Shown here in pieces: positions 4,232 through 62,079 of a stretch of DNA of 64,000 nt. Source of the stretch: Antarctobacter aquimaris (GTDB lineage Bacteria; Pseudomonadota; Alphaproteobacteria; Rhodobacterales; Rhodobacteraceae); the NCBI RefSeq assembly GCF_900184945.1, contig NZ_FXYF01000006.1, positions 1 to 64,000 on the forward strand, given 5' to 3'. How positions within the stretch are numbered: the first letter of the stretch is position 1; every line of letters begins with the position of its first letter. A model generated the notes under the pieces. It was not told the DNA's origin and did not search any database. It worked only from the letters and a program-made list of their open reading frames with translations. The position numbers and the translations under genes were made by a program.

Positions 4232-4275
4232 CAAGCGCGTTGCAACGCGCTTGCAAGGATTTTGCAAAATCCTTG
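4232..4275. repeat. Two adjacent 22-bp perfect palindromes
   Basis: Two perfect palindromes stand side by side with no gap: one with core GCGTTGCAACGC (4232-4253) and one with core ATTTTGCAAAAT (4254-4275). Both are flanked by CAAG/CTTG. They sit just after the stop codon of the alpha/beta-hydrolase gene (minus strand), and three similar clusters occur later in the window (31924, 41463, 44412). As RNA each would form a hairpin. A terminator or RNA-stabilising role is inferred. Confidence 0.75.
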
Positions 4276-31080: not shown

Positions 31081-31141
31081 TTCTTTGGTTTCAAAAATAC
31101 CTCGGGGGGAGTTGCGGCACGCAACGGGGGGCAGCGCCCCC
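31081..31141 (-). repeat. REP-like intergenic element
   Basis: TTCTTTGGTTTCAAAAATAC and CTCGGGGGGA, an inverted repeat (GTTGCGGCACGCAAC) and GGGGGGCAGCGCCCCCT follow in order. It shares this layout with copies at 45265, 48563, 55650 and 62015. It sits between the transketolase and SDR genes. Confidence 0.8.
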
Positions 31142-31166: not shown

Positions 31167-31919
31167 ATGCTCTTGAAAGACAAGATCGCCGTCATCACCG
31201 GCGCCGCCAGCCCCCGCGGCCTCGGCAAGGCCACCGCGCGCCTCTTCGCCGACCACGGCGCGCGGGTCGCCATCCTCGACCTCGACGCCGCAGCCGCCCA
31301 GGCGGCCGCGACCGACCTGCCCGGGACGGGCCACATCGGGCTGGCCTGCGATGTCACCGACAAAGCGGCCTGCCAGGCAGCCGCCGAAGCCGCCCTCACC
31401 GCCTTCGGCCAGGTCGACATCCTGGTGAACAACGCCGGCATCACCCAGCCGCTGAAGCTGATGCAGATCGAGCCGCAGAACTACGACGCCGTGCTCGACG
31501 TCAATCTGCGCGGCACGCTCTACATGAGCCAGGCGCTGATCCCGCACATGCGGTCACGCAAGTCCGGCGCCATCGTCAACATCTCGTCGGTCTCGGCGCA
31601 GCGCGGCGGCGGCATCTTCGGCGGACCGCATTACTCGGCGGCCAAGGCCGGCATCCTCGGGCTGACCAAGGCCATGGCGCGCGAACTGGCGCCCGATGGC
31701 ATCCGCGCCAACGCGGTCTGCCCCGGCTTCATCGCCACCGACATCACGGCGGGCAAGCTGACGCCGGAAATGATGGAGCAGATCCTGGCCGGCATCCCGA
31801 TGGCCCGCGCGGGCGAGGCCTCGGACGTGGCGGGCTGCTGCCTGTTCCTCGCATCCGACCTCGCGGCCTATGTCACCGGCTCCGAGGTGGACGTGAATGG
31901 CGGCTCGCTGATCCACTGA
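31167..31919 (+). CDS. SDR family oxidoreductase
   Basis: The 250-residue classical short-chain dehydrogenase has a nucleotide motif TGAASPRGLGKA (about 10-21), NNAGIT (about 89-94), a catalytic Ser in ISSVSAQRG and YSAAK (about 154-158). TGAASPRGLG has two residues more than the standard TGxxxGxG loop. Position after the split transketolase suggests a sugar- or polyol-derived substrate. The 3' end is followed by five palindromes shared with a convergent FAH-family gene. Confidence 0.9.
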   Translation: MLLKDKIAVITGAASPRGLGKATARLFADHGARVAILDLDAAAAQAAATDLPGTGHIGLACDVTDKAACQAAAEAALTAFGQVDILVNNAGITQPLKLMQIEPQNYDAVLDVNLRGTLYMSQALIPHMRSRKSGAIVNISSVSAQRGGGIFGGPHYSAAKAGILGLTKAMARELAPDGIRANAVCPGFIATDITAGKLTPEMMEQILAGIPMARAGEASDVAGCCLFLASDLAAYVTGSEVDVNGGSLIH

Positions 31920-31923
31920 GCGG

Positions 31924-32039
31924 GAAAGGGCCTTCGAAGGCCCTTTCAAACCGTTTTGGGAAAACGGTTGAAGCGGCTTCGAAGCCGCTTCAAAGCCCCT
32001 TGCAAGGGGCTTGGGAAAGGCGTTTCGAAACGCCTTTCC
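31924..32039. repeat. Five consecutive perfect palindromes between convergent genes
   Basis: Five inverted repeats follow almost without spacers: 31924-31947 (core CCTTCGAAGG), 31949-31969 (AACCGTTTT-GGG-AAAACGGTT), 31970-31991 (core GCTTCGAAGC), 31993-32012 (core CCTTGCAAGG) and 32014-32039 (core GTTTCGAAAC). Each of the 20-26-base units is perfectly or near-perfectly symmetric. TTCGAA and TTGCAA cores alternate. The unit set lies between the convergent SDR and FAH-family stop codons and could serve as a bidirectional terminator. Confidence 0.85.
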
Positions 32040-32046
32040 TCCTGGC

Positions 32047-32892
32047 TCAGGACGCCGCGACCGCCTCCTGCCGTTGCTCGCCCAGCCCTTCGACCCGCAC
32101 CACCATCACGTCGCCGGGTTTCAGGAACCGCTGCGGCTTCATCCCCATGCCCACGCCCGACGGCGTGCCGGTGGCGATGATGTCACCCGGCACCAGCTTC
32201 ATGAAGCGCGACATGTAGGACACGATCGTCGCCACGCCAAAGATCATGTCCGATGTATCGCTGTCCTGCACCGTCGCGCCGTTCAGGTCGAGCGACAGCT
32301 TCAGCGCCTGCGGATCGGGCACCTCGTCCGCCGTCACCAGCCAGGGGCCGGTCGGACCGAAGGTCGGCGCCGACTTGCCCTTGATCCACTGGCCGCCCTT
32401 TTCCAGCTGGAATTCCCGCTCGCTCATGTCGTTGATCACGCAGTAACCCGCCACATGCGACAGCGCGTCGGCCTCGGAGACGTAAAGCGCCTCCTTGCCG
32501 ATCACCACGCCCAGTTCGACCTCCCAGTCGGCCTTGGCCGAGTTGCGCGGGATCACCACCGGGTCAAATGGACCAGACAGCGCCGAGGTCGCCTTGGAGA
32601 ACAGGATCGGCTCGGCCGGGATCGCCATGTTGCTCTCGGCGGCATGCTTGGCGTAGTTCAGCCCGACGCAGTAGAAATTCGGCACCGAGGCAAGGCAGGA
32701 CCCGATCCGGCCCGGCTCGGCCACCACCGGCAGGCTGGACAGGTCCAACGCCCGAATCCGGTCCAGCGCCTCCAGCGACACGCCCTCTCCGGCGAAATCC
32801 GCCACATGGGCGGACAGGTCGCGCACCTGCCCATCCTTGTCCAACATGCCGGGCTTTTCCTGGCCCGCGGCTCCGAAACGCAACAGTTTCAT
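32047..32892 (-). CDS. Fumarylacetoacetate hydrolase family protein
   Basis: The 281-residue protein has the FAH core from about residue 75: FYCVGLNYAKHAAES, metal-binding Glu pair in WEVELGVVIGKE (about 119-130), DMSEREFQLEKGGQW and GTPSGVGMGMKP. Members cleave or hydrate beta-diketo-type sugar-acid or aromatic intermediates, for example 2,4-diketo-3-deoxy-L-rhamnonate/fuconate hydrolase. The neighbouring sugar-acid genes favour that kind of role. A GntR regulator lies 40 bases upstream on the same strand. Confidence 0.9.
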   Translation of the reverse strand: MKLLRFGAAGQEKPGMLDKDGQVRDLSAHVADFAGEGVSLEALDRIRALDLSSLPVVAEPGRIGSCLASVPNFYCVGLNYAKHAAESNMAIPAEPILFSKATSALSGPFDPVVIPRNSAKADWEVELGVVIGKEALYVSEADALSHVAGYCVINDMSEREFQLEKGGQWIKGKSAPTFGPTGPWLVTADEVPDPQALKLSLDLNGATVQDSDTSDMIFGVATIVSYMSRFMKLVPGDIIATGTPSGVGMGMKPQRFLKPGDVMVVRVEGLGEQRQEAVAAS

Positions 32893-41462: not shown

Positions 41463-41507
41463 GCAAGAATTTTCGAAAATTCTTGCAAATTTCCGTGCGG
41501 AAATTTG
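41463..41507. repeat. Two palindromes after the UxaA-type gene
   Basis: A perfect 24-base palindrome (core AATTTTCGAAAATT, 41463-41486) is followed by CAAATTTCCG-TG-CGGAAATTTG (41486-41507). The second arm plus GGCCGCCC is nearly the same as at 44433. The cluster lies between the UxaA-type and Gfo/Idh stop/start codons. Confidence 0.75.
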
Positions 41508-44411: not shown

Positions 44412-44454
44412 AAAAATCGTCCACGATTTTTGCAAATTCCGTCCACGGAATTTG
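44412..44454. repeat. Two palindromes between the DMT transporter and a convergent SDR
   Basis: AAAAATCGT-CC-ACGATTTTT (44412-44431) and CAAATTCCGT-CC-ACGGAATTTG (44433-44454) stand in succession, followed by GCCGCCCC. The second unit closely resembles the unit at 41486. Confidence 0.75.
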
Positions 44455-45264: not shown

Positions 45265-45322
45265 TCTTCTTTGGTTTTGAAAATACCTCGGGGGGGGCCG
45301 CAGGCGGGGGGCAGCGCCCCCC
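45265..45322 (-). repeat. REP-like intergenic element
   Basis: TCTTCTTTGGTTTTGAAAAT and ACCTCGGGGGGG, a shortened inverted repeat and GGGGGGCAGCGCCCCCC follow in order. The second hairpin is reduced compared with the 62015 copy. Confidence 0.75.
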
Positions 45323-48490: not shown

Positions 48491-48627
48491 GGGGGCGCTG
48501 CCCCCGTCGCCTGCGGCGACTCCCCCGGAGGTATTTGCGCAGAGAAGAAACACGGGCTTGCGCTTCTTCTTTGTGAAAATACTCCCGGGGTGAATGGTCC
48601 GCAGGACCAGAGGGGCAGCGCCCCTCG
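48491..48627. repeat. Two REP-like elements in face-to-face arrangement
   Basis: A forward copy (48491-48550, GGGGGCGCTGCCCCC ... CAGAGAAGAAAC) is followed 12 bases later by a reverse copy (48563-48627, CTTCTTCTTTGTGAAAATAC ... AGGGGCAGCGCCCCT). The pair can fold into one large stem and lies between convergent RraA and PhyH genes. Confidence 0.8.
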
Positions 48628-55649: not shown

Positions 55650-55714
55650 CTTCTTTGGTTTGAAAAATACCTCGGGGGGAGCCTGCCACAGGCAGGCGGG
55701 GGGCGGCGCCCCCC
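55650..55714 (-). repeat. REP-like intergenic element
   Basis: TTCTTTGGTTTGAAAAATAC and CTCGGGGGGA, then GCCTGCCACAGGCAGGC and GGGGGGCGGCGCCCCCC follow. It lies in the 105-base gap between the DenD-like and xylose-dehydrogenase-like genes. Confidence 0.8.
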
Positions 55715-56497: not shown

Positions 56498-56504
56498 CGG
56501 TTTC

Positions 56505-56621
56505 GGATCGCGTGCCGCGATCCGACCGGCCGGGGGCTCTGCCCCCGGACCCCCGGGATATTTCGGGCCAGAAGAAGACTGGGCGCGCGCGGCACCGGGC
56601 GGAGCGTCGACCTCCGCCCGG
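56505..56621. repeat. Hairpins and a REP-like variant between the SDR and cysK
   Basis: GGATCGCG / CGCGATCC (56505-56523) comes first, then a GGGGGCTCTGCCCCCGGACC and CCGGGATATTTCGGGCCAGA and AGAAGAC REP-like unit (about 56532-56579), then CCGGGCGGAG / CTCCGCCCGG (56595-56621). The last hairpin is 10 bases past the cysK stop on the minus strand and can terminate that gene. Confidence 0.65.
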
Positions 56622-62014: not shown

Positions 62015-62079
62015 GCTTCTTTGGTTTGAAAAATACCTCGGGGGAGTCGGCCGCAGGCCGACGGGGGCAGCGCCCCCTC
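62015..62079 (-). repeat. REP-like intergenic element (full-length copy)
   Basis: CTTCTTTGGTTTGAAAAATA and CCTCGGGGGA, then GTCGGCCGCAGGCCGAC and GGGGGCAGCGCCCCCTC form a canonical copy in the gap between the amidohydrolase and the monooxygenase genes. Confidence 0.85.

Follow-up and report, generated by a model that had tools for sequence, protein, structure and literature searches.

What does a row of five palindromes do in the short space between two converging genes? The question is raised by a locus of Antarctobacter aquimaris at 31924-32039 of the window, by which we mean the whole stretch of DNA that was analysed (64,000 nucleotides).

Architecture of the Locus

A short-chain dehydrogenase (SDR) gene and a fumarylacetoacetate-hydrolase (FAH)-family gene converge on a gap of 127 bp, of which 116 bp are occupied by five abutting inverted repeats with arms of 9-13 bp, four of them without a loop:

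31167-31919, plus strand: SDR gene (Pfam adh_short_C2, E=1.2e-67)
31924-31947: palindrome 1, 12-bp arms, no loop
31949-31969: palindrome 2, 9-bp arms, 3-nt loop GGG
31968-31993: palindrome 3, 13-bp arms, no loop
31993-32012: palindrome 4, 10-bp arms, no loop
32014-32039: palindrome 5, 13-bp arms, no loop
32047-32892, minus strand: FAH-family gene (Pfam FAA_hydrolase, E=7.9e-73)

The array begins 4 nt past the SDR stop (31919, plus strand) and finishes 7 nt short of the end of the FAH-family gene (32047, minus strand), and its adjacent units either overlap by 1-2 nt or are separated by 1 nt. The predicted folding energy is -76.8 kcal/mol for one strand (z -7.6) and -74.2 kcal/mol for the other (z -7.4), in both cases equalled by 0 of 200 shuffles. 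The initial annotation had described 116 bases in five inverted repeats, symmetric on both strands and lying between convergent SDR and FAH-family genes, and coordinates, Pfam assignments and folding (z about -7.5 on each strand) bear this out, one unit having a loop.

Inverted repeats with arms of at least 9 bp and loops of at most 4 nt number 19 across the window, against 3-6 in five shuffles. Besides the array at 31924-32039 there are three two-unit arrays in related styles:

4232-4275: two-unit array, 16 nt from the stop of a minus-strand gene and near the RNase P RNA gene
41463-41507: two-unit array, AT-rich dialect
44412-44454: two-unit array, AT-rich dialect, between convergent genes

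The RNase P RNA gene close to the first of these (RF00010, 3784-4165, minus strand) was the only Rfam hit over the gathering score in the 64-kb window, and no Rfam family was found for the arrays. Distant blastn at E<=1e-3 gave no match to the array in the plasmid collection.

A Family of Arrays in the A. aquimaris Genome

The core of palindrome 5 recurs elsewhere in the genome, and the pattern AAGNNNNTTNNAANNNNCTT, which only some units of arrays fit, has 114 matches in the 5.3 Mb (reversed control: 0). A sample of 464 kb, made up of the window and 20 stretches taken at fixed intervals along six contigs with blast matches to the array, holds 15 arrays of at least two units and 39 loop-free palindromes with arms of at least 9 bp, compared to 7 in one shuffle. 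Altogether 36 arrays of two (n=20), three (n=6), four (n=7) or five units (n=3) were collected from this genome, many of them chosen because the pattern was present, so that no density can be derived from their number. The array at 31924-32039 had been called the largest copy of its family, which is correct within the window; in the genome it is not the largest, as the 36 arrays include two further ones of five units (117 and 114 bp).

Unit centres lie 21-26 bp apart and unit edges -5 to +4 nt apart, as is expected of units that are simply packed. A common frame, AAG....TT.NN.AA....CTT with favoured centres CG/GC, can be recognised, and 43 different half-cores occur among 101 units, even though unlinked arrays share unit order. 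Identical units within one array were not seen (0 versus 3.2 expected, P=0.034), a weak avoidance at best. The centre is self-complementary in 70 of 96 even-symmetry units (convergent 39/50, tandem 31/46); a hairpin loop does not need such a centre, which counts against a plain terminator reading. According to passages of PMC13155455, the commonest spacer of bacterial inverted repeats in general is four.

Several other repeats were noted alongside the family. A further double-hairpin dialect (TCG...CGA, then CCGGGGGC...GCCCCCGG) follows convergent genes at 56503-56548 and at L119 3472-3515, and is also present in Mameliella sp. CS4, at the orthologue of the 44412 array. Palindromes or palindrome pairs recur at a distance of 107-108 bp (L106 6544-6695; L104 15329-15458; G000 C18:40644 and 40751) in what looks like segment duplication, CS4 having a single pair at the L106 site, and in CS4 itself one unit occurs twice, 109 bp apart (C263:54576 and 54685). 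A second dispersed repeat is built around AAATACCTCGGGGGG, with five matches in the window at up to 2 mismatches versus 0.17 expected (31095-31109, 45281-45295, 48522-48536 on the minus strand, 55665-55679 and 62031-62045); the sites at 31095 and 55665 are intergenic, upstream of a gene and followed by a G-run/C-run stretch, and their CS4 orthologues carry similar text.

Placement Relative to Genes

Placement was counted on codon-usage gene calls made in this analysis. Of the 39 loop-free palindromes of the 464-kb sample, convergent gaps account for 18, tandem gaps for 12 and divergent gaps for none; the other 9 fall within called genes, which is about chance level. Divergent gaps make up 27% of the intergenic bases, and measured against such shares the convergent excess has p=5e-8 and the divergent deficit p=1e-4, values that are optimistic because the units of one array are not independent. 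Counted per gap of at least 40 bp, loop-free palindromes are found in 8/31 convergent, 5/158 tandem and 0/63 divergent gaps (convergent vs. tandem p=2e-4, convergent vs. divergent p=7e-5), the difference between tandem and divergent gaps being small. Four looped repeats were found in divergent gaps of the same sample.

The 36 own-genome arrays are distributed over convergent (19) and tandem (17) gaps, with none in a divergent gap. The distance to the upstream stop is at most 31 nt for 15 of the 17 tandem arrays (66 and 138 nt for the remaining two), and 16 of the 19 convergent arrays are no more than 32 nt from a stop. This position just after stop codons, rich in convergent gaps, is that of 3'-end signals. 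Of the 19 arrays examined in CS4, 8 are convergent, 9 tandem and 2 called divergent; in G323, a genome of another genus, the 23 arrays comprise 10 convergent, 11 tandem, 1 called divergent and 1 at a locus edge. The divergent calls (2/19 and 1/23) count against a reading as transcript ends.

The Same Junction in Relatives

The best 80 of 561 SDR-relative loci were compared (537 kb). Arrays were found in two of them (L024 and L082; shuffles 0), hence most relatives do without. A convergent FAH gene lies within 400 bp of the SDR gene in seven of the 80. The SDR/FAH junction of Mameliella sp. CS4 (L024) carries three palindromes, two of which share the inner arms of window palindromes 1 and 3, and that of Marivita XM-24bin2 (L082) carries two units. 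One ordinary hairpin is present in four of the seven junctions (L025, L026, L032, L044), belonging to Mameliella MMSF_3455, Marimonas lutisalis, a Rhodobacteraceae MAG (L032) and Thalassobacter stenotrophicus; the L025 hairpin is terminator-like, flanked by AAAAAA/TTTT. The junction of an uncultured member of the Rhodobacteraceae (L027) has no fold beating shuffles (z -1.3 and -0.3), and the window and the other six junctions fold on both strands (z -2.6 to -7.8). The SDR/FAH junction thus usually holds something that folds, its form being free.

In CS4, palindrome 1 has arms identical to those of the window and a centre CA instead of CG, palindrome 2 differs by two base pairs changed on both sides, and palindrome 3 has the inner arms of the window, again with CA in place of CG at the centre; palindromes 4 and 5 are missing. 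The stretches of A. aquimaris and CS4 have 75 neighbouring gene pairs in common. At five orthologous junctions 14 units were matched by eye, counting inner arm pairs and leaving out outer flanking pairs: the inner arms are mostly identical, with five pairs changed on both sides and one on one side (G-U in the sense RNA), and the centres differ in 9 of the 14. Automatic matching gave 15 units with 12 of 141 pairs changed on both sides, a set that includes a looped terminator (window 2312), a doubtful homologue (41463) and at least two wrong matches (L191 8555, L197 10729).

In orthologous arrays, then, arms persist, centres drift and whole units are present in one genome only (L111/L178: 4 vs. 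2). The CS4 orthologue of the 41463 array has two units of different sequence, that of the 44412 array two hairpins of another type, and at L106 a unit pair occurs twice in A. aquimaris and once in CS4. CS4 lacks the array at 4232-4275 and has one, in a gap called divergent, that A. aquimaris lacks. Arrays are flanked by G-rich sequence on the left and C-rich sequence on the right. A closing outer stem around the arrays was considered and rejected, as true flank partners pair no better than swapped ones in A. aquimaris, CS4 and G323.

Distribution Among Genomes

A genome was termed array-rich if it had at least 20 matches to AAGNNNNTTNNAANNNNCTT and a count at least four times that of the control. 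This applies to 21 of 395 genomes of the family including A. aquimaris, with up to 165 matches; a few genomes are intermediate (e.g., 18 vs. control 0; 15 vs. control 1), with most of the rest at background. Species of one genus can differ completely (g50: 124 vs. 0; g80: 0 vs. 31) or agree, as in two g3 species (72 and 73). In a further sample of 42 genomes reached through named loci among the 80 SDR loci, the highest counts belong to Mameliella CS4 (48), Marivita XM-24bin2 (40), Alloyangia pacifica (33) and Tropicibacter naphthalenivorans (21), and all others have 0-5 matches (3 in Mameliella MMSF_3455). G323 also has pairs built on CCGG..TGCGCA..CCGG; the pattern AAGNNNNTTNNAANNNNCTT sees one dialect, so that a low count is no proof that a species lacks hairpin pairs. 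Palindrome pairs of near-equal spacing and wholly different styles were noted in G323 as well (L207 2255-2299, L218 3788-3831, L215 160-203).

For nucleases and transposases, 20 array-rich genomes (of the 21; G309 was left out) were compared with 20 hand-picked array-poor ones (0-3 matches). Loss of a hairpin nuclease does not separate the groups, SbcD (TIGR00619) scoring over the cut-off in 0/20 array-rich and 2/20 array-poor genomes.

Terminator Features

The initial annotation proposed that the array might act as a two-way terminator, and this is supported in part. In its favour are the position at 3' ends, the convergent excess, the hairpins formed on both strands and the looped hairpins at the junction in four of seven relatives; against it stands the absence of the canonical intrinsic T-tail. 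The GC-rich hairpin of a canonical (L-shaped) Rho-independent terminator is present (median unit energy -12.6 kcal/mol), but its U-rich tail (at least 5 T in 8) was found at 0 sites in 31600-32400, compared to 0.7 in shuffles, so that a canonical U-tract terminator was rejected. In 156 array unit/strand cases the mean T-tail score is 2.06 and 19% reach 2.5; 46 isolated hairpins have a mean of 1.79 (22% reach 2.5) and random places one of 0.86 (2%). Array T-tails are therefore enriched but weak. The locus does have the stable hairpins shortly past a stop that define I-shaped terminators and hairpin clusters, for which no tail is required, and, as in a bidirectional terminator, both strands form a hairpin between two convergent genes. 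The missing canonical tail would leave termination of a tail-poor or hairpin-cluster sort, or hairpins that protect 3' ends made by Rho.

Bidirectional intrinsic terminators shared by convergent genes form the "X-shaped" class of the GeSTer scheme. The array resembles these in being one element between convergent stops with a hairpin on both strands and a symmetric A side and T side (AAAGG...CCTTT), but consists of several abutting, mostly loop-free hairpins rather than one, with a T-run of 2-3. Hairpin clusters near stop codons have been reported as terminators (Sci Rep 2021, PMC8355165), and passages of that report describe hairpins near the stop, spaced by fewer than 15 bases, with two-hairpin clusters the commonest, as here; the commonest loop there is 6 bases, whereas the arrays are mostly loop-free palindromes in one sequence style that recur across one genome and are patchy between species. 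In the high-GC alphaproteobacterium Methylosinus sporium 5, I-shaped (tail-poor) ends account for 78% of strongly structured ends according to sections of PMC12403871, and share with the arrays high GC, a stable hairpin and few U; tandem perfect palindromes like those of the arrays do not come up in these sections. A description of such arrays in Rhodobacteraceae was not found among the top-ranked matches in open-licence PMC papers, nor in passages of PMC13155455, PMC12306157, PMC12207403, PMC3733652, PMC8355165 and PMC12403871, which does not prove their absence from print.

Perfection of Pairing

Pairing was surveyed in 722 gaps of three genomes. The minimum was 8 matched pairs for an array unit (9 for a perfect one) and 10 pairs with a 3-4 nt loop for an isolated hairpin, and stems with a mismatch beyond a core of at least 9 perfect pairs were scored as perfect, so that the two classes are not measured wholly alike. 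Of units beside another palindrome, 186 are perfect and 6 mismatched, two of the six looking unrelated to the family. In tandem gaps the array units comprise 92 perfect, 1 G-U, 1 A-C and 1 other, and the isolated looped hairpins 13 perfect, 9 G-U, 1 A-C and 10 other (ten shuffles pooled: 0 G-U, 2 A-C); isolated looped hairpins in convergent gaps comprise 3 perfect, 2 G-U, 5 A-C and 1 other. The excess of G-U over A-C in tandem isolated hairpins is a mark of selection on the RNA of one strand. Near-perfect array units after tandem genes count against a plain RNA terminator, in which G-U should be tolerated; either both strands matter, or a correcting process acts on the palindromes, or a wobble is too much for short stems.

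Possible Copying of Arrays and Comparison With REP Elements

Among the 16 own arrays with at least three units, 4 pairs share at least three units and 20 share at least two, in the same order, compared to means of 0.08 and 5.0 in 1000 permutations. Sharing of ordered units between unlinked arrays beyond chance points to copying of whole arrays. In G323 one core pair recurs in five arrays, once in reverse order.

A RAYT (Y1 transposase, PF01797) as the mover of the arrays was rejected: it was not found in the A. aquimaris genome (5 of 14 control genomes were positive), and with carriers in 2/20 array-rich and 1/20 array-poor genomes it does not track arrays among the 40. At 72 array ends (-8 to +4) there was no GTAG, CTAC or CGTC, and GACG occurred twice; with neither tag nor RAYT, assignment to GTAG/CGTC-tagged REPs was rejected as well. 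As described in passages of PMC3733652, GTAG- and CGTC-tagged REP/BIME elements are, like the arrays, clustered palindromes of 20-40 bp that adjoin the 3' ends of convergent and co-directional genes, and CGTC repeats are said to be without a dedicated transposase. Compared with the elements in those passages, the arrays have no tag, no RAYT and varied unit sequences, and they hardly have the G-T pairs that are said there to be frequent in REPs.

Interpretation of the Arrays

The array is a variant of known 3'-end hairpins. From its sequence we interpret it as a bidirectional transcript-end element of clustered hairpins with very short U-tails, a reading to which we assign a probability of roughly two in three and which draws on position, predicted folding of both strands, the family, conserved pairing in orthologues and the hairpins of relatives. 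Each palindrome, transcribed from either side, would give a 9-13 bp RNA hairpin just past the stop, and the row of hairpins would halt RNA polymerase coming from both genes, in the manner of a tail-poor "I-shaped" or clustered-hairpin intrinsic terminator; it would probably block 3' exonucleases as well. Several short-tailed hairpins in series might add up to the effect of one strong U-tract terminator, and the differences between units may serve to let each fold alone.

Rho-made transcript ends are trimmed back to hairpins, and position and both-strand folding would also fit if Rho ended transcripts further on and 3'-5' exonucleases trimmed them to the array, which would then be a barrier and not a terminator. 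The weak U-tails are in line with such protection, as are the many two-unit arrays of G323 in which a terminal CCTTG leads into C-rich DNA, U being almost absent. Protection alone does not account for as many as five units, and the hairpin at the L025 junction looks like a terminator, two objections of little weight; we regard this reading as rather unlikely. We think it quite improbable that the arrays are a dispersed BIME/REP-like element, i.e., a palindromic repeat, selfish or domesticated, that spreads by copying, is tolerated at 3' ends and perhaps acts on DNA (gyrase, cruciform). Ordered unit sharing between unlinked arrays in A. aquimaris and G323, the patchy spread within g50 and g80 and the near-perfect pairing agree with such an element, but RAYT is absent from the genome and about as rare in array-rich as in array-poor genomes, the array ends carry no GTAG, CTAC or CGTC, and the units are varied. 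A gyrase- or BIME-like role of the arrays at the DNA level may nevertheless exist.

The initial annotation had also suggested a supercoiling- or nucleoid-linked element, for which we found no positive support. We give next to no credence to an array of sites for a dimeric protein, be it an operator or a nucleoid-protein site: the common frame and the favoured CG/GC centres could be expected of it, but within a unit the variable arm letters complement each other, and a few have changed pairwise; base pairing accounts for this, whereas a fixed specificity of binding would not. In addition, none of the 36 own arrays lies in a divergent gap, and the scattered spacing of 21-26 bp, which follows packing, rules out strict helical phasing (10.5 bp).

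It is also conceivable, if doubtful, that the arrays represent a new class of dispersed 3'-end module, in which strings of mutually different perfect palindromes would be copied between gene ends without RAYT, with units gained and lost singly and perfection maintained on both DNA strands through correction (e.g., hairpin template switching) or because both strands must fold, letting a lineage swap its ordinary terminators for palindrome strings genome-wide within one genus. Near-perfect pairing and transposase-free sharing of unit order are the features that call for explanation.

If the interpretation as a bidirectional transcript-end element is true, A. aquimaris and its array-rich relatives offer a clear, countable case of a lineage with a GC-rich genome that ends transcripts with several weak hairpins in place of a single U-tract terminator, and natural experiments at the same junction, such as the array of Mameliella CS4 versus the single hairpin of Mameliella MMSF_3455. 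The arrays pose the question of how palindromes spread and stay perfect without a known REP transposase.
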